From NCBI GenBank assembly GCA_027021085.1, contig JALUVB010000307.1:1-19046 (forward strand): DNA of 19,046 nt, in the 5' to 3' direction. The notes beneath the pieces were generated by a model, which was not told the origin of the DNA, made no database searches, and saw only the letters and a program-made list of their open reading frames with translations. Shown here in pieces: positions 372 to 15,844 of the stretch. Source of the DNA: a bacterium. Its GTDB lineage: Bacteria; CAIJMQ01; JAADFP01. The position numbers and the translations under genes are program-made. Within the stretch, counting starts at the first letter, position 1. Every line of letters begins with the position of its first letter.

Positions 372-1550
372 TCAGCTATCAGTTCTGAGTTTTTTCTGAT
401 GAATAGCGGGGTGAATCTTGCCCTCTCCTGCTATCGCTGCTCTATAGACCTCTTTTAAAGGCAGGTTTCTTTTTGCAGCTACCCTTTTGCAGCTTTCGTA
501 TTCAGGAGAAATACTCATTACCTTTCCCCTGTACTTACCTATTTTTACCTCCACTTTCCCATATTCTGTATTGACAGTCTTTATGTATCTTTCTAATTCC
601 ACCCTTTCCGGGTGGAAGATACGCACCCCCGTAGTGCTGGTTTCCCGGAAAATTATCTCCACAAGCTTTTCTTTCTCTCCTTCCCGGCATAAACAGGAGA
701 GGAGTATTCCCGGCCTGTTTTTCTTCATATGTACAGGAGTGAGGTAAACATCCAGTGCTCCATGTTTAAATAAATTTTCCATTACATACTCATAAATTTC
801 GGGGTTTAAATCGTCAATGTTGGTTTCAATAAGAATTTTCCTCGCCTCTATACTCTCCCCTACCCCCAGGTAAACTCTCAATAGGTTGGGTAAATTTTTA
901 ATGATTTTTCCTCCGGCACCGTATCCGATACTTTCTATTTTTATCTCCGGCATCCTGAATTCATCCACAAATTCCGAGAGCAGCAAAGCACCGGTAGGAG
1001 TCACCAACTCCGAGGTTACTCCCGTGGAATAAACAGGTATGCCTTTTAAAAGTTCCACAGTGGCAGGAGCCGGGACAGGTACGGTTCCATGCTCCGTATT
1101 TACAAATCCTTCCCCTACATTTACCTTGCCGGCAAATACTTTCTCCACATTTAAAATCTTTAAGCCCACAATGGCACCCACCACGTCCACGATTGTATCC
1201 AGCAACCCCAGCTCATGAAAAGTATGCACTCTGCCATGTATCTTTTTCTCCACAGCATGCAACCTCTTAAACATTTTCACTGCTTTCTGCTTAACCTCTA
1301 CTTCAAGCTTGCTTTTATTTATTATCTCTACGATTTCCTTCAGTCCCCGTTCTGTTTTTTCTTCTTTGACCACGAGCCTGGTGGCAGTTATCCCGTTTCG
1401 TTTGACCCCTGTAACTTCTATCTCAAAGTCTGCATCTAATTTACCCAGTTCTGCTTTAAGAAGTTCAAAGGACAGCCCGGCATCTAAAAGCGCTGACAGA
1501 AACATATCTCCGCTTATCCCCGCAAAACAGTCCAGGTAAAGTATTTTCAT
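372..1550 (-). CDS. larC: LarC, nickel insertion protein for the nickel-pincer nucleotide cofactor
   Basis: LarC is the CTP-dependent nickel chelatase that finishes the pyridinium bis-thiocarboxylate mononucleotide (NPN) cofactor used by lactate racemase LarA and its relatives. The protein begins MKILYLDCFAGISGDM, the family hallmark, and carries a His-rich stretch HGRVHTFHELG followed by DTIVDVVGA, plus EHGTVPVPAPAT and a C-terminal PEYESC...PLKEVYR block. It has 392 residues from this start, close to full length. The ATG at 1550 overlaps the larB stop as ATGA. An in-frame start five codons earlier (1565) exists but would lengthen the overlap and precede the conserved N-terminus. In Lactiplantibacillus plantarum LarC is made by programmed frameshifting of two ORFs; here the frame is continuous. 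The last few codons run into repeat-like sequence (CTATCAG motifs), so the extreme C-terminus may be non-conserved. It is last in the larE-larB-larC unit. Confidence 0.93.
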   Translation of the reverse strand: MKILYLDCFAGISGDMFLSALLDAGLSFELLKAELGKLDADFEIEVTGVKRNGITATRLVVKEEKTERGLKEIVEIINKSKLEVEVKQKAVKMFKRLHAVEKKIHGRVHTFHELGLLDTIVDVVGAIVGLKILNVEKVFAGKVNVGEGFVNTEHGTVPVPAPATVELLKGIPVYSTGVTSELVTPTGALLLSEFVDEFRMPEIKIESIGYGAGGKIIKNLPNLLRVYLGVGESIEARKILIETNIDDLNPEIYEYVMENLFKHGALDVYLTPVHMKKNRPGILLSCLCREGEKEKLVEIIFRETSTTGVRIFHPERVELERYIKTVNTEYGKVEVKIGKYRGKVMSISPEYESCKRVAAKRNLPLKEVYRAAIAGEGKIHPAIHQKKLRTDS

Positions 1551-2293
1551 GTTTTTCTCTGGCAAATTAACGCAGCAAAGTAACCTGCGCCGTAGCCATT
1601 ATCAATATTCACCACTACTACACCCGGTGCACAGGAGTTAAGCATGGTTAACAAGGGCGAAATACCCTGGAAATTAGCTCCATACCCCACACTTGTAGGA
1701 ACAGCAACCACAGGCCTACTGAACAACCCTGCCACCACACTTGGCAGAGCACCATCCATTCCCGCCACCACAATAATAACCTCTGCCCGCTTTATTTCTT
1801 CCTTGCAACTTCCCAGCCTGTGAATTCCTGCCACCCCCACATCAAATATCGGCCTTACCTCAACGCCCATTGCCCTGGCCACAATCATAGCTTCCCTGGC
1901 TATTGGTATATCACCTGTGCCCCCGGTGAGAACCACAGCTTTCCCTCCCTCAATCTCAGGATATTCACCCAGGTATATTATCCCGGCATCTTTGTATATT
2001 TTCGCCCCGGGAAATTTCCGGGCAATTATTTCCATGATTTCAGCTGATGCTTTTGTGGCCAGAACATTCGCCTTACCCTCCATCTCGGAGAATATATTCA
2101 CTACATCTTCCGGCGTTTTACCTAAGCAGAGAACAGTCTCCGGAAGACCTTTTCTTATTTCCCGGTGGTAATCTATTTTTGCAAAACCCAGGTCTTTAAA
2201 GGGAAGGTCTTTCAAGCGCTGGAAAGCTTCCTCCAGAGAAACTTCTCCCTGGCTCAAACTATAGAGTATCTTGTAAATTACTTCTTCCTTCAC
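1547..2293 (-). CDS. larB: LarB, nicotinate adenine dinucleotide carboxylase/hydrolase of NPN synthesis
   Basis: LarB carboxylates nicotinic acid adenine dinucleotide and hydrolyses it, the first step of nickel-pincer cofactor synthesis. The C-terminal half is a PurE-like (AIR carboxylase) fold: TGGTGDIPIAREA, VRPIFDVGVAGIHRL, VVAGMDGALPSVVAGL, PTSVGYGA and NSCAPGVVVVNIDNGYGAG. The start is re-assigned. A TTG-initiated frame reaches 2314, but the GTG at 2293 lies 8 nt after a strong AAAGGAG (2302-2308, minus strand), giving a 248-residue protein. With that start the cysteine of NSCAPG is residue 221, the position I recall for the reactive Cys of the L. plantarum enzyme (about 246 residues). 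It overlaps larC by 4 nt and lies 77 nt after larE. Confidence 0.93.
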   Translation of the reverse strand: MKEEVIYKILYSLSQGEVSLEEAFQRLKDLPFKDLGFAKIDYHREIRKGLPETVLCLGKTPEDVVNIFSEMEGKANVLATKASAEIMEIIARKFPGAKIYKDAGIIYLGEYPEIEGGKAVVLTGGTGDIPIAREAMIVARAMGVEVRPIFDVGVAGIHRLGSCKEEIKRAEVIIVVAGMDGALPSVVAGLFSRPVVAVPTSVGYGANFQGISPLLTMLNSCAPGVVVVNIDNGYGAGYFAALICQRKT

Positions 2294-2370
2294 CTCTGAA
2301 TCTCCTTTTTCCAAACTCCGAGCACAAAGCTCAAAACCAACCTGCTTACTCTCTTCTCAGAGCAAACCCC

Positions 2371-3177
2371 TCATTTTCCTAAGGGTTCATTCATGCTCCC
2401 GGTCCTGTATCCCTCCAGGTCCAGGGTAATGTAATTGAAGCCGAGTTGTTTAAACTTGCCTACCACCTCTTCTCTTACTCTAATCAGCTTCTGGAAATCA
2501 CCAGGTTCAACCTCGAGTCTTACAATATTGCCATGGAACCTCGCCCTCACCTGCCTTAACTTGTATTTCCTTAAAAATTCTTCTGCCGCCTGGATCTTTC
2601 TCAGTTTCTCCTCGTCAATAGTCTCCCCATAGGGAAACCTGGAGGCAAGGCAGGCATAAGATGCCTTATCCCAGGTGGGCAACCCCATCTTTTTACTCAG
2701 TATCCTTATCTCATTCTTTGTAATTCCGGTTATTTTAAGAGGGCTCACCACTCTTAGTTCTTCTGCCGCCCTCATTCCCGGCCTGAAGTCATTTGTATCA
2801 TCGGCATTTGTTCCGTCAGCTACATGCTTAAAACCCTTTTCCCGGGCAATCTCTTGCAATTTACTGAAAAGCTCAGATTTACAGTAGTAGCATCTATCCG
2901 GCGGGTTTTTCCTGAAATCTGCCAAGGCAAGCTCCTCAGATTCAATCCACATCCAGTTTACATCCAGTTTTTCTGCTATATTTTTTGCTTCCTCAAATTC
3001 ATGTTGTGCATAGGTTTCCGATTTTGCCGTTACCGCCAGAGTATTTTCCTTGCCGAGTGTGTCACGGGCAACTTTAAGAAGGAATGTGCTATCCACGCCC
3101 CCGGAAAATGCCACCACCAGGGAGCCAAGTTTTTCTATTTCTTTTTTCAATTTTTCTAATTTTGCTTCTGGCTTCAT
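2371..3177 (-). CDS. larE: LarE, sulfur transferase of NPN synthesis (tri-cysteine type)
   Basis: LarE is an ATP-dependent PP-loop enzyme that converts the two carboxylates of the LarB product to thiocarboxylates. The PP-loop SGGVDST lies at residues 25-31, followed by AKSETY, the block DGTNADD (121-127) and KASYACLASRFPYGE. Three cysteines are positioned as C96 and C99 (DRCYYCKSE) and C176. Residue 176 matches the single sacrificial cysteine of the L. plantarum enzyme. A three-cysteine arrangement is known from LarE proteins that carry a 4Fe-4S cluster and recycle sulfur catalytically, so cluster-type chemistry is the likelier mode; this is inference from the residue pattern. The length of 268 residues is normal. 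It is first gene of the lar unit and divergent from priA, with only 42 bases between start codons. The ribosome binding site is weak. Confidence 0.93.
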   Translation of the reverse strand: MKPEAKLEKLKKEIEKLGSLVVAFSGGVDSTFLLKVARDTLGKENTLAVTAKSETYAQHEFEEAKNIAEKLDVNWMWIESEELALADFRKNPPDRCYYCKSELFSKLQEIAREKGFKHVADGTNADDTNDFRPGMRAAEELRVVSPLKITGITKNEIRILSKKMGLPTWDKASYACLASRFPYGETIDEEKLRKIQAAEEFLRKYKLRQVRARFHGNIVRLEVEPGDFQKLIRVREEVVGKFKQLGFNYITLDLEGYRTGSMNEPLGK

Positions 3178-11918: not shown

Positions 11919-11948
11919 TTGACAAAAATAATTATATTATGCTATACT
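11919..11948 (+). promoter_or_regulatory. Strong sigma-70-type promoter of the sigma-like gene
   Basis: TTGACA (11919-11924) and TATACT (11943-11948) are separated by 18 bp. The -10 is preceded by TGC, making it an extended -10 as well. Transcription should begin near 11955, so the RNA starts just before the first leader hairpin (11960-11978). A near-consensus promoter combined with a leader terminator fits control by attenuation and not by initiation. Confidence 0.7.
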
Positions 11949-11954
11949 TCTGCA

Positions 11955-12020
11955 ACACAGAGCACAAGGTTAGTGCTCAGGAAAGAACGAAGGGACGTTC
12001 GGAAGCGCGTCCCTTTTTTT
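11955..12020 (+). promoter_or_regulatory. ANTAR-type tandem-hairpin leader with overlapping intrinsic terminator (sigma-like gene)
   Basis: Hairpin P1 is GAGCAC/GTGCTC (11960-11978) with loop AAGGTTA. Hairpin P2 is GAACG/CGTTC (11985-12000) with hexaloop AAGGGA. Each loop has A at position 1 and G at position 4, the signature of RNA targets of ANTAR-domain antiterminators. The 3' half of P2 is also the 5' arm of a terminator: AAGGGACG (11990-11997) pairs with CGTCCCTT (12008-12015), followed by T-rich sequence to 12026. P2 and the terminator are therefore mutually exclusive, as required for antitermination. The P1 loop is 7 nt unless one A is bulged. Motif logic is established for ANTAR systems; its use here is inferred, and no ANTAR protein is encoded in the window. 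Confidence 0.65.
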
Positions 12021-12041
12021 GTTTTTATAGGGGTAAGGAAA

Positions 12042-12560
12042 ATGGATTTTAAAACCCTGTACGAAAAAGTCTCTCCCAGATTAAGAAAAATAGCTCTCAG
12101 GTATAGGGGGTGTGGCTATTTTATTGATAGTGATGACCTCTACCAGGAAATGTGTATGCATTTATGGGAAAGATTTAAAAACGGCATGCCAGAAGGTGTA
12201 AATGAAGCTTATGTAATCAAGGGATGTGAATTTTACATATTAAACTTTCTCAGAAAGACAAGAGACAAAGCAATGGTATTAAGCCTGGATAACCCCTTTA
12301 ATGAAGATAGTGATACACTGAAAGATATTCTCCCGGATACGGGAGAATCCCTGGAAAGGAACTTAGACAGGAAAATGCTCTTAGACAAAATAAGAAATAA
12401 TGGTTTAAGCAGGCGGGAAAGGGAAGTATTTTTACTATTGCTGAAAGGTTATACCTTAAGAGAGATCGGAAAGGAACTGGGTATTTCACATGTAATGGTG
12501 AATAAATTAAAAAAAAGAATAATCAAAAAGTGGCAAAAAAAGTTGGAGGTTACCAAATAG
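12042..12560 (+). CDS. Small sigma-70-family (ECF-like) RNA polymerase sigma factor
   Basis: The 172-residue product has a region 2-like segment DSDDLYQEMCMHLWERF (about 29-45) and a C-terminal region 4 helix-turn-helix (about 121-165: LSRREREVFLLLLKGYTLREIGKELG then ISHVMVNKLKKR), the layout of ECF-type sigma factors. No anti-sigma gene is adjacent. The start is set at the ATG of MDFKTLYEKV, because the longer frame reaching 11862 would translate through the promoter and leader terminator. AGGGG lies 8 nt upstream of this ATG. The gene sits 168 nt before glnA and shares with it a leader element and the sequence GTTTTTATAGGG just after the terminator, so a role in nitrogen-responsive gene expression is suggested. 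It could alternatively be a helix-turn-helix regulator with sigma ancestry. Confidence 0.78.
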   Translation: MDFKTLYEKVSPRLRKIALRYRGCGYFIDSDDLYQEMCMHLWERFKNGMPEGVNEAYVIKGCEFYILNFLRKTRDKAMVLSLDNPFNEDSDTLKDILPDTGESLERNLDRKMLLDKIRNNGLSRREREVFLLLLKGYTLREIGKELGISHVMVNKLKKRIIKKWQKKLEVTK

Positions 12561-12604
12561 CGCCTCTTTTTACTTAATACTATGAGGACTTTTAAGTGCA
12601 AAAG

Positions 12605-12613
12605 TGATATTAT
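12605..12613 (+). promoter_or_regulatory. Probable extended -10 promoter of glnA
   Basis: TGATATTAT (TG-N-TATTAT) is an extended -10 element whose predicted start site, near 12620, falls just before the leader motif, the same geometry as at the sigma gene. No good -35 box is visible. No sigma-54 GG-N10-GC element was found in the intergenic region. Confidence 0.4.
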
Positions 12614-12639
12614 ATCTATATTGTGTTTGAGCTGTATTA

Positions 12640-12697
12640 AGGAGAGGACAAAAGGACGTTCAAAAAACTTGTGATTTTGGGCGTCTTTTTTTGTTTT
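12640..12697 (+). promoter_or_regulatory. glnA leader: P2-like hairpin overlapping a 15-bp terminator
   Basis: The block 12640-12661 aligns without gaps to the sigma-gene leader at 11979-12000. P2 is GGAC/GTTC (12646-12649 with 12658-12661), enclosing AAAGGA as a hexaloop with A1 and G4 if the A-C apposition at its base is counted as the closing pair. The overlapping terminator is strong: 12651-12665 pairs with 12675-12689 over 15 bp, including three G-U pairs, around the loop AACTTGTGA, then a T-tract interrupted by one G. A P1 hairpin is not convincing here; only a weak TTGA/TTAA stem (12627-12640) occupies its place. The arrangement supports transcription attenuation of glnA, probably relieved by the same factor as the sigma gene. 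Confidence 0.62.
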
Positions 12698-12728: not shown

Positions 12729-14060
12729 ATGAGTAAGAAGAGTAAAGAAGATATTGTAAAGATAGTTAAAGAACAGGATGTAAAGTTCATCAGGTTATGG
12801 TTTACAGATATCTTAGGCCAGGTCAAGAGTTTCGCCATTACTGACAGAGAACTGGAAGGAGCATTGGAAAACGGGATGGGTTTTGACGGCTCCTCGATTA
12901 CAGGTTACCAGTCAATCGAAGAAAGCGACATGATAGCATTGCCCGACCCATCCACATTCCAGATTCTGCCCTGGAGGCCTCAGGAAAAGAAGGTGGCCAG
13001 GATGATATGCGATATTTTAACTCCTGACCGCAAGCCATACGAGGGGGATCCCCGGTATGTTTTAAAGAGAGCTTTAAAGCGTATGAAAGATATGGGATTT
13101 GACCATTATTACCTGGGACCTGAGTTAGAATACTTCTACTTTAAAAGCGACCAGGTTACAGAAATACTGGATAGGGGTGGTTACTTTGATTTAACTACTC
13201 TGGATGTAGCCAGCGACCTGCGCAGAGACACAATTCTTGCCCTGGAAAACATGGGGATACCCATTGAGTACTCACATCACGAGGTAGGGCCAAGCCAGCA
13301 CGAAATTGACATGAGATACGGTGATGCTCTGGAGATGGCTGACCATGTAATTACTTACCGGATAGTGGTTAAAGAGATAGCCCAGAAATTTGGTGTATAT
13401 GCTACATTTATGCCCAAACCTTTATTTGGCGAGAACGGAAGTGGTATGCATACCCACCAATCTCTTTTCAAAGGAGATAAGAATGTTTTCTTTTCTCCTG
13501 AAGCCAAATATAACCTATCTGACGTAGCCAAGAAATTTATTGCCGGACAACTTGCCCATGCACGGGAAATGAGTGCCATTTTTGCACAGTGGGTAAACTC
13601 CTACAAAAGACTGGTTCCCGGTTATGAAGCACCGGTTTACATTGCCTGGTCCAAGAGGAACCGCTCAGCCCTTATCAGGGTTCCCATGTACCATCCGGGC
13701 AAAGAAAATGCCACAAGAGCAGAGCTCAGATGTCCCGATCCGGCCTGTAATCCATACCTCACTTTTGCAGTAATGCTGCAGGCAGGATTGGAAGGGATAG
13801 AGAAAAACTACCCATTATCCGACCCCATGGAAAAGAACCTCTATCATCTATCCAACGAAGAAAGAAAAGCACTGGGTATTGAATCCCTGCCAGACAGCCT
13901 GGGAGAAGCCGTACTCGTTACTGAACAAAGCGAACTGGTCAGAAAAGCCCTGGGGGAACACGTTTTCACCAGGTTCATTGAGCTAAAGAAAAATGAGTGG
14001 GAAGATTACCGCATACAGCTTACAAAATACGAGTTAGACAAATTATTGCCCATATTGTAA
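12729..14060 (+). CDS. glnA: Glutamine synthetase, type I-alpha
   Basis: GlnA makes glutamine from glutamate, ammonium and ATP, the entry point of ammonium assimilation. At 443 residues without the roughly 25-residue GSI-beta insertion it is the alpha subtype found in Bacillus and Thermotoga. Family motifs are present: GFDGSSITGYQSIEESD (51-67), GPELEYF, SHHEVGPSQHEID, FMPKPLFGENGSGMH, NSYKRLVPGYEAP and RCPDPACNPYL. A tyrosine (Y372, NLYHLSNEE) occupies the adenylylation position, but alpha enzymes are generally not adenylylated. Residue 62 is Ser where Bacillus GS has Arg62, which is needed for glutamine feedback inhibition. AAAGGAGG lies 5 nt before the ATG. Expression is probably governed by the leader terminator upstream, and a 22-bp hairpin separates it from amt. 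Confidence 0.97.
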   Translation: MSKKSKEDIVKIVKEQDVKFIRLWFTDILGQVKSFAITDRELEGALENGMGFDGSSITGYQSIEESDMIALPDPSTFQILPWRPQEKKVARMICDILTPDRKPYEGDPRYVLKRALKRMKDMGFDHYYLGPELEYFYFKSDQVTEILDRGGYFDLTTLDVASDLRRDTILALENMGIPIEYSHHEVGPSQHEIDMRYGDALEMADHVITYRIVVKEIAQKFGVYATFMPKPLFGENGSGMHTHQSLFKGDKNVFFSPEAKYNLSDVAKKFIAGQLAHAREMSAIFAQWVNSYKRLVPGYEAPVYIAWSKRNRSALIRVPMYHPGKENATRAELRCPDPACNPYLTFAVMLQAGLEGIEKNYPLSDPMEKNLYHLSNEERKALGIESLPDSLGEAVLVTEQSELVRKALGEHVFTRFIELKKNEWEDYRIQLTKYELDKLLPIL

Positions 14061-14071
14061 AAGTCCATTGG

Positions 14072-14121
14072 AAATAAAGGCGTTTTACTGCGGAATGCCC
14101 CGCGGTGAAACGCCTTTATTT
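14072..14121 (+). terminator. 22-bp hairpin between glnA and amt
   Basis: Sequence 14072-14093 pairs with 14100-14121 over 22 bp with only two G-U pairs, around the 6-nt loop AATGCC. The descending arm ends in CTTTATTTA, a weak U-rich tail, so partial termination or mRNA processing and stabilisation between glnA and amt is likely. The arms start and end with AAATAAAGGCG and its complement, so the structure would also form on the opposite strand. The hexaloop happens to have A1 and G4, the ANTAR loop rule, although the long stem is unlike P1 or P2. Confidence 0.7.
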
Positions 14122-14149
14122 ATCAGCAAAATCAGGAAAGGAGTGCAGG

Positions 14150-15484
14150 ATGTGTAAAAAAACTTTTGGATTAATGCTGTTTTTTATAGTAGCTACTCTC
14201 TTCTTCCCAATTCTGGCTTCTGCCGAGACTAAAATATTATATGCCACTCAAGTGGGGGTAGATACAGTCTGGGTGCTTATCGCAGCATTTCTGGTGTTTT
14301 TTATGCAGGCAGGATTCGGTATGGTAGAAGCCGGCTTCATCCGAGCCAAGAATACCTGTAACATATTAACCAAGAATTTCCTGGACTTTTGTATGGCTTC
14401 TATAGGTTTCTTTATGTTCGGCTATGCTATTATGTTCGGGTTGGGGAACGATTTTATAGGATTAAAGGGGTGGTTTTTGAGTGGAGCCCAATCAGGAGCA
14501 AATGTACCTCTCTATGCTTTCTGGTTATTTCAGGCAGCTTTCTGTGGAGCTGCGGCTACAATTGTAGCAGGAGGCATGGCAGAGAGAATGAAATTTTCTG
14601 CTTATATCATCTACTCTTTTATTATCTCTGCACTCATCTACCCATTGGTAGGTCACTGGATATGGGGAGGAGGATGGCTGGCCAAATTAAATTTTGCTGA
14701 TTTTGCTGGTTCTACTGTAGTGCACGTTGTAGGAGGATTTGCCGCACTTATCGGGACAATGATATTGGGCCCCAGAATAGGAAAATACAATGCTGATGGA
14801 AAAGTCAATGCTATCGAAGGGCATTCCATCCCCCTGGCTGCCCTGGGAGTCTTCATCCTCTGGTTCGGCTGGTTCGGATTTAATCCGGGGTCTGCCCTGG
14901 GAGTCAGTAACGGCAACCTCATTGCCAGAGTAGCTATAAATACCAACCTGGCTGCCGCCATGGGAGGAATCACTGCTATGCTGATTGTCTGGAAGCTGTT
15001 TGGCAAACCAGATTTATCCATGGCTATGAACGGGGCCCTGGCCGGGCTGGTAGCTATCACTGCTCCCTGTGCGTTTGTAGAACCATGGGCAGCAATTGTT
15101 ATCGGGGGAATCGGAGGGATTATTGTTGTGCTGGGAGTCATGCTGCTGGACAAATTAAAGATTGACGACCCAGTAGGAGCAGTGCCCGTGCATGGCTTCA
15201 ACGGGATATGGGGAACATTATCCATTGGTTTGTTTGGGCAAGCATCATTGGGGCTGGCAAATAACGGGTTGTTTTATGGAGGGGGGTTGAAACAACTCGG
15301 CATTCAGCTTTTGGGAGTAACTGCTGTAATTGTTTTTATCCTGATTAGCATGGGACTTGTTTTTAAATGTATTGATAAACTGATAGGATTAAGGGTCAGC
15401 CGGGAGGAAGAATTGCGAGGTTTAGATATTGGGGAACACGGCATGGAATCTTATGCCGGGTTCCAGATATTTACTACCCAGTAA
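14150..15484 (+). CDS. amt: Ammonium transporter Amt
   Basis: Amt is a trimeric inner-membrane ammonium channel. From this start the protein has 444 residues: a cleavable signal peptide (1-25, ending ILASA-ET) and 11 membrane helices. Pore residues are in place: D184 (NFADFAGS), twin histidines H192 (STVVHVVGG) and H348 (GAVPVHGFNGIWG), and EGHSIPLAALGVFILWFGWFG. The conserved C-terminal tail GLDIGEHGMESY, which contacts PII, is present. The start is moved from a GTG at 14105, which lies inside the intergenic hairpin, to the ATG at 14150, which has AAAGGAG 6 nt upstream and begins exactly at the signal peptide. Its PII partner follows 18 nt later, and GlnK-type PII is expected to plug this channel when nitrogen is plentiful. 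Confidence 0.96.
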   Translation: MCKKTFGLMLFFIVATLFFPILASAETKILYATQVGVDTVWVLIAAFLVFFMQAGFGMVEAGFIRAKNTCNILTKNFLDFCMASIGFFMFGYAIMFGLGNDFIGLKGWFLSGAQSGANVPLYAFWLFQAAFCGAAATIVAGGMAERMKFSAYIIYSFIISALIYPLVGHWIWGGGWLAKLNFADFAGSTVVHVVGGFAALIGTMILGPRIGKYNADGKVNAIEGHSIPLAALGVFILWFGWFGFNPGSALGVSNGNLIARVAINTNLAAAMGGITAMLIVWKLFGKPDLSMAMNGALAGLVAITAPCAFVEPWAAIVIGGIGGIIVVLGVMLLDKLKIDDPVGAVPVHGFNGIWGTLSIGLFGQASLGLANNGLFYGGGLKQLGIQLLGVTAVIVFILISMGLVFKCIDKLIGLRVSREEELRGLDIGEHGMESYAGFQIFTTQ

Positions 15485-15502: not shown

Positions 15503-15844
15503 ATGAAACTTATTATTGCCATGATACAGCCGCACAAACTGCCCGATGTGAAGAAGGCTCTTTACGAGGCAGAGGTTTTCAAGATGACAGTTACAAATGC
15601 CCTGGGGTGCGGACAGCAGAAAGGATTCACGGAAACCTACCGGGGAGTCATACACGAGGTTAACCTGCTCAAGAAAGTAAGGCTCGAAATAGCAGTAAAC
15701 GAAGACTTCGTAGAGCCCACCATAGAAGCCATCATAAAAGGGGCAAAGACAGGGAAAATCGGGGATGGCAAGATATTCGTCCTCGACCTGGCTGAGTGCA
15801 TAAGAATCAGGACAGGTGAACGCGGTCCTGAGGCTATTGGATAG
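15503..15844 (+). CDS. glnK: PII signal protein (GlnK type), no Tyr51
   Basis: This 113-residue trimeric PII protein senses ATP/ADP and 2-oxoglutarate and is expected to gate the adjacent Amt channel. Motifs: GCGQQKG with Q39, TYRG at 45-48 in the T-loop, [11 protein letters not shown] (55-65), and [11 protein letters not shown] (83-93) followed by RIRTGE. The T-loop reads [11 protein letters not shown], so position 51, the uridylylated tyrosine of E. coli GlnB/GlnK, is His, and position 49 (Ser in cyanobacteria) is Val. Regulation must therefore be by ligands alone or by another modification. It is placed directly after amt with AAGGAAGGAG upstream, the usual amt-glnK pair. The stop is 3 bases from the convergent queA stop, so there is no room for a terminator before the queA gene body. 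Confidence 0.95.

Follow-up and report, generated by a model that had tools for sequence, protein, structure and literature searches.

An ANTAR-type attenuator before an ECF-type sigma factor gene and similar leaders on its putative nitrogen-assimilation targets: a probable coherent feed-forward loop in Omnitrophota and a second, small phylum

The window, that is, the whole stretch of 19,046 nucleotides analysed here, contains a sigma factor gene which is separated from its own promoter by an intrinsic terminator and is followed by glnA, amtB and glnB. This raises the question of how such a gene is expressed, and of what its product has to do with the nitrogen genes beside it. A sequence-only reading had proposed an ANTAR-type antitermination leader and, through the sigma factor, a regulatory cascade. 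From the comparative analysis of sequences alone it is now considered probable that nitrogen assimilation is controlled by a coherent feed-forward loop, made up of an ANTAR attenuator on an ECF sigma gene and of like attenuators on the targets of that sigma factor. The wider claim, that in Omnitrophota and in the window's small phylum ANTAR gates both the ECF sigma gene and most of its transcripts, a serial AND gate on ammonium assimilation, is regarded as likely.

The gene described earlier as sigma-like (12042-12560, + strand) encodes an ECF-type sigma factor of 172 amino acids with regions 2 and 4, its product matching the Sigma70_r2 and Sigma70_r4 profiles above cut-off and scoring 81.4 bits with TIGR02937 (cut-off 42.9). 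Orthologues are present in three relatives of the window's phylum and in 110 of the 384 Omnitrophota-side genomes. On its 3' side lie, in this order, all on the + strand and identified by profile match, glnA for a type I glutamine synthetase (12729-14060), amtB for an ammonium transporter (14105-15484) and a gene for a glnB-type P-II signalling protein (15503-15844).

A sigma70-type promoter precedes the sigma gene at 11919-11948 (+), with TTGACA at 11919-11924 and TATACT at 11943-11948, an 18-nt spacer and an upstream TG that makes the latter an extended -10 element. The gene upstream of the leader is divergent, so the intrinsic terminator at 11990-12020 (+) stands between a promoter and the gene which that promoter would serve. 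The terminator stem pairs 11990-11997 with 12008-12015 (arms AAGGGACG and CGTCCCTT), with a T-tract at 12014-12020. Two small hairpins are found ahead of it: P1 (11960-11978, +; GAGCAC-AAGGTTA-GTGCTC) closes a heptaloop with 6 bp, and P2 (11985-12000, +; GAACG-AAGGGA-CGTTC), the putative antiterminator, closes a hexaloop with 5 bp. Both loops have A at position 1 and G at position 4 (A1/G4), and a linker of 6 nt joins the hairpins. In an ANTAR leader a short linker is expected between two hairpins whose stems have 3 bp or more, which P1 and P2 provide, and P2 should overlap an intrinsic terminator, as it does here and in homologues. A1/G4 hexaloops are expected in both hairpins; the P2 loop fits, while the P1 loop has A1 and G4 but measures 7 nt rather than the canonical 6. 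The 3' arm of P2 is part of the 5' arm of the terminator, and the two structures are mutually exclusive. The tandem A1/G4 hairpins and the bases that P2 shares with a terminator, both claimed from the letters of this stretch alone, are borne out by the sequence and by folding. The minimum free energy fold of 11958-12002 is P1 plus P2 (-14.2 kcal/mol, z -4.1, equalled by 1 of 200 shuffles), while that of 11985-12016 is the terminator (-15.7, z -3.2), which beats nearly all shuffles; for the entire leader z is -3.2, with none of 200 shuffles as good.

Leaders of this type also precede the sigma orthologues of three genomes of the window's phylum (G005, G003 and G001) and of an Omnitrophota MAG (L007). 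The feature is, on these comparative grounds, not a product of chance, because sigma orthologues in Omnitrophota and in a further family of the window's phylum have it at the same place. An alignment of 25 homologous sigma-gene leaders allowed covariation to be assessed, the lack of which in P1 and P2 had been named beforehand as grounds for rejecting the ANTAR reading. RNAalifold recovers P1 from this alignment unaided; compensatory changes are seen in 5 of its 6 pairs, pairing holds in 95% of cells, and none of 500 shuffles reaches the covariation score. In the P1 loop G4 is invariant and A1 is present in at least 90% of the 25 leaders, with loops of 6 and 7 nt mixed, A1/G4 heptaloops being common among the homologues. 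The terminator stem covaries too. P1 therefore passes the check; for P2, covariation is not supported within the 25-leader alignment. Some of these leaders carry a P2 hexaloop and others an apparent octaloop, and the absence of covariation is attributed to a 3' arm fixed by the terminator and to the use of these two registers.

Support for P2 comes instead from its position. An A1/G4 P2 hexaloop overlaps 87 of 169 terminators upstream of sigma genes, against 18.5 overlaps expected when 5' flanks are exchanged between loci, and only 4 of 96 terminators on the antisense strand. Of 106 P2 hexaloops closed by at least 4 bp, 87 have G at position 4. P2 is hence supported, as a predicted structure, through the flank-swap control and not through alignment covariation. 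Furthermore, many Omnitrophota sigma leaders contain two or three terminators in tandem, with hexaloop hairpins such as GGAT-AATGAA-GTCC and AAGAC-ACAGAA-GTCTT in these modules. Searches with the Rfam covariance models returned no family matching the leader at gathering score; at relaxed thresholds the trpB motif, PyrR and others matched weakly below gathering score and were judged chance. The L007 leader has two copies of a repeated element, ATCCCGAGC...GCGAGGGAT, next to it (about 262-325 and 412-460), and the element is found again ahead of the L032 sigma gene. Its L007 copies have no Rfam match, and it could be a mobile or regulatory repeat.

The sequence-only reading called for an ANTAR protein in the same genome. 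The window's genome (G000; 1.93 Mb in 307 contigs) encodes exactly one, on contig piece L001, a GAF-ANTAR protein of 252 amino acids above the Pfam cut-off. Together with the covariation of P1, the invariant G4 and the flank-swap control, this single protein upholds the interpretation of the leader as ANTAR-type. Alignment to EutV (6wsh, whose chain numbering runs two above the paper's) shows that R142, E160 and Y164, which make contact with the flipped G4, are kept, along with M172, R168 and R175, while K147 is changed to R, N173 to K and R177 to P; the roles of the RNA-contact residues follow PMC8934654. Seven of 8 genomes examined, among them the window's own, have the ANTAR protein in a single copy. 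An ANTAR domain is present in 284 of 384 Omnitrophota-side genomes, comprising 105 of the 110 with the sigma factor and 179 of the 274 without it (Fisher p 3e-11; the co-occurrence p-values treat genomes as independent and ignore phylogenetic kinship). ANTAR must have other work in sigma-lacking genomes, because 179 of them possess it. Many relatives encode the ANTAR protein close to the sigma factor, 0.15-2.3 kb upstream of its gene; at the one locus of this kind that was read (G345/L018) glnA is situated between the two genes.

The GAF domain of this protein resembles the GAF of NifA-type regulators, and from this likeness a nitrogen or carbon-nitrogen balance signal is plausible but unproven as its input; nitrogen limitation, sensed for example through 2-oxoglutarate, is no more than a guess. 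The GAF-ANTAR gene (L001:1414-2172, - strand) follows rpoN, the gene for sigma54, after a gap of about 10 nt (region L001:1414-3097, G000 C33). A gap of this size suggests that rpoN and GAF-ANTAR, two regulators of nitrogen type, are cotranscribed.

A promoter for the sigma factor itself is proposed at 12549-12575 (+), where the element GTTACC-N16-TACTT overlaps the 3' end of the sigma gene and reads into glnA; the proposal is based on co-occurrence and fixed spacing. Regions downstream of sigma genes carry GTTACCA...TTTACTT at the 3' end of the gene or just beyond. GTTACC and TACTT occur together in 93 of 114 such loci, at a spacing of 16 in 91, where shuffles lead to an expectation of 0.02, and the consensus over 166 sites is GGTTACCAAAA-N7-TTTTTACTTGTA. 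The stricter pattern GTTACCA-N15-TACTT is present in 103 of 110 genomes with the sigma factor and in 38 of 274 without (p 1e-51). Its matches number 241 in the former group and 47 in the latter, against 15 and 81 for a reversed-pattern control, and remain at 155 against 47 (p 3e-45) once copies adjacent to the sigma gene are left out. In the window's phylum four sigma-positive genomes have 3, 3, 2 and 2 sites, and three sigma-negative ones have none. The element is placed as a promoter would be, with a leader hairpin beginning a few tens of nucleotides downstream. That the sigma factor reads GTTACC-N16-TACTT is the simplest inference, because the presence of the element tracks the sigma gene at a promoter-like place and at fixed spacing; it rests on co-occurrence and position, with no binding data.

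Upstream of the sigma gene a different promoter is the rule, TTGACA/TGnTATAnT-like sequences being found in 84 of 114 homologous loci, a count that depends on the score threshold set in this analysis. Autoregulation of the sigma gene was considered and dropped, a GTTACC-type promoter preceding it in none of the 114 loci.

The window's genome holds three GTTACCA-N15-TACTT sites, all upstream of nitrogen genes: that at 12549-12575 before glnA-amtB-glnB, one (L128) before a porin-amtB operon and one (L133) before a gene for a class-II glutamine amidotransferase of glutamate-synthase type. Relaxed to GTTACCN{12,18}TACTT, the pattern yields 12 matches in this genome and 5 in the reversed control, and nine of the 12 have other spacings and look like background. 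In relatives, most of the genes behind such sites code for nitrogen functions or outer-membrane porins; they include those for glutamine synthetases I and III, glutamate synthase, P-II, ammonium transporters, porins, an amino-acid permease, a hybrid-cluster-type protein and a NifH-family protein. This tally is not a random sample, because 60 of the distal promoter sites were hand-picked from the list and some were skipped. One distal site in a relative, L172, before a gene read as kdpA and without a leader, was judged chance. The cascade inferred earlier from the sigma gene alone is in this way strengthened by a sigma-type promoter element that stands before nitrogen genes and co-occurs with that gene. 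In two relatives (L202 and L207) the GAF-ANTAR gene is itself preceded by an ANTAR-type leader and the sigma-type promoter, an arrangement that would amount to positive feedback.

The earlier reading contained neither the promoter of the sigma factor nor the ANTAR-type leaders on its targets, that of glnA included. This second leader (12610-12692, +) is matched at 12610-12690 (E 0.011) by the covariance model R1, which was built only from sigma-gene leaders. It comprises a P2-like hairpin, GGAC-AAAAGGAC-GTTC (12646-12661, +), and a terminator (+) pairing 12655-12665 with 12675-12685 before a T-tract at 12686-12692 (fold z -3.5). No convincing P1 was found in the window's glnA leader, where the region folds no better than shuffles; the sequences considered near 12588-12608 and 12627-12640 fail the A1/G4 requirement. 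At E of at most 1, R1 has exactly four matches in the window's genome, namely the sigma, glnA, L133 and L128 leaders. Three of these are weak (E 0.01-0.15), and they convince mainly because the promoter pattern found the same places independently; G005 has the same four-fold pattern. The P1 and P2 stems of the L128 and L133 leaders are, by eye, weak or partly mismatched. Of 168 promoter-linked leaders, 138 have an A1/G4 hexaloop hairpin with a stem of 4 bp or more (43 in shuffles), and 78 have two (6.5 in shuffles).

Two observations concern single leaders. The porin-amtB leader (L128, about 1380-1300, - strand) has a second hairpin/terminator-like module, GTACAAGGGTAAGTAC ... GGCAGACATCGCCGTCTTTTT, after the first. 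In addition, a relative without the sigma gene contains a strong leader match (L240; G004 C33:483-586; E 4e-7), located, like the leaders of G003 and G001, behind a gene resembling glutamate dehydrogenase; the place of the sigma gene is taken by what reads as guaA (GMP synthase).

Other explanations of the leader and of the element have to be weighed against this reading. The terminator might be unregulated and only insulate the sigma gene from upstream transcription, intergenic intrinsic terminators being common; this is hardly tenable here, where the upstream gene points away, the terminator separates a strong promoter from its gene, P1 and P2 are conserved with P1 covarying, and two or three terminators with overlapping hexaloops stand in tandem in many homologues. 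The hairpins could also form a metabolite riboswitch or a protein-binding attenuator unrelated to ANTAR, and an unknown RNA class is possible, as Rfam holds no matching family. Such an attenuator is nevertheless rated very unlikely, given A1/G4 loops with an invariant G4, a dual hairpin with P2 over the terminator, and a single ANTAR protein that keeps the G4-contact residues and is often encoded beside the sigma gene.

An unlikely but more serious objection accepts the leader as an ANTAR target and assigns the GTTACC element to another activator or another sigma factor, leaving two separate, neighbouring nitrogen controls. Promoter recognition by the sigma factor lacks direct demonstration, and a few sigma-negative genomes have convincing sites (L156/L197 of G158, L208/L209 of G339 and L225/L226 of G126). 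These exceptions may however represent incomplete genomes or homologues under the E-value limit, which is unconfirmed. The element tracks the sigma gene (103/110 against 38/274 genomes, and 4/4 against 0/3 in the window's phylum), its -35/-10-like fixed spacing is typical of sigma promoters, and it occupies the place of a promoter, the leader hairpin following within a few tens of nucleotides.

In the preferred reading, with ANTAR acting on the sigma gene and again on the targets of the sigma factor, the sigma gene would be transcribed from its housekeeping sigma70-type promoter and RNA polymerase would stop by default at the terminator (11990-12020). Active GAF-ANTAR protein is predicted to bind the P1 and P2 loops, whereupon P2 would take the 5' arm of the terminator and permit read-through into the sigma gene. 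The sigma factor would then direct polymerase to the GTTACC-N16-TACTT promoters of the three target loci, whose transcripts are each inferred to start with a hairpin/terminator leader. These leaders are of the same kind, and therefore the ANTAR protein would be needed a second time, at each sigma-dependent operon. It thus appears, as far as sequence comparison can tell, that nitrogen uptake needs the sigma factor and antitermination together, most target genes carrying an ANTAR-type switch. Architecture, conservation and co-occurrence are established by comparison; default termination, antitermination, ANTAR binding, promoter recognition and the double need for ANTAR are only inferred.

The individual parts of this circuit have precedents. 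Dual-hexaloop leaders are established targets of ANTAR proteins (EutV on eut, NasR on nasF, AmiR on ami), with regulons predicted by Ramesh et al. (2012; PMC3369931), and the link of dual-hairpin ANTAR leaders to nitrogen genes is already known (PMC3369931, PMC8934654, PMC8164766). The present leaders resemble those of EutV, NasR and AmiR in their two small A1/G4 hairpins, in a P2 over an intrinsic terminator and in an ANTAR protein encoded in the genome, and the nitrogen targets, including P-II, ammonium transporters and glutamine and glutamate synthases, resemble known ANTAR regulons. Unlike in those systems, a sigma factor gene is among the targets, P1 loops often have 7 nt, the sigma leaders of relatives have tandem P2/terminator modules, and targets lie behind a dedicated sigma-type promoter. 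Like ECF sigma factors (TIGR02937), the sigma factor is a two-domain member of the sigma70 family with regions 2 and 4 and a putative two-part promoter of fixed spacing, but its gene is apparently gated by leader antitermination. As with NtrC/sigma54 on glnA and amtB, a special sigma factor would drive nitrogen-assimilation genes; here it is of ECF type and is joined by ANTAR antitermination and a GTTACC...TACTT element. The window's genome also has rpoN, beside the ANTAR gene. In Geobacter sulfurreducens, GnfK/GnfR includes an ANTAR response regulator within a nitrogen-fixation cascade, which is phosphorelay-controlled and is not known to gate an ECF sigma gene. GnfK is the nitrogen-fixation sensor kinase and GnfR its response regulator (PMC7962754).

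No sigma-factor target is named in the main text of PMC3369931, supplementary tables aside, and none emerged from main-text passages and term searches of PMC3369931, PMC8934654 and PMC8164766. A search for literature on ANTAR with ECF sigma factors, or on nitrogen control in Omnitrophota, found nothing relevant, subscription literature and supplementary tables being excluded. ANTAR leaders are known but no sigma-factor target was found for them; within the literature searched, what is new here is therefore a combination of known parts that was not found described. Control by ANTAR antitermination has been described for single operons and for nitrogen regulons; no account was found in which ANTAR gates a sigma factor, or in which the same operons are subject in series to an ECF sigma factor and to antitermination. 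Should it hold, the circuit would put a name to the nitrogen-control logic of uncultured bacteria, and its promoter signature would make the regulon readable in any MAG. It would also represent a natural coherent feed-forward loop, with two controls at the level of RNA polymerase, that can be rebuilt in a laboratory host, while the definition of an ANTAR target would be widened by heptaloops and tandem modules.

Elsewhere in the window, at 372-3177 (- strand), three adjoining genes resemble, by eye, larC, larB and larE of the nickel-pincer cofactor.
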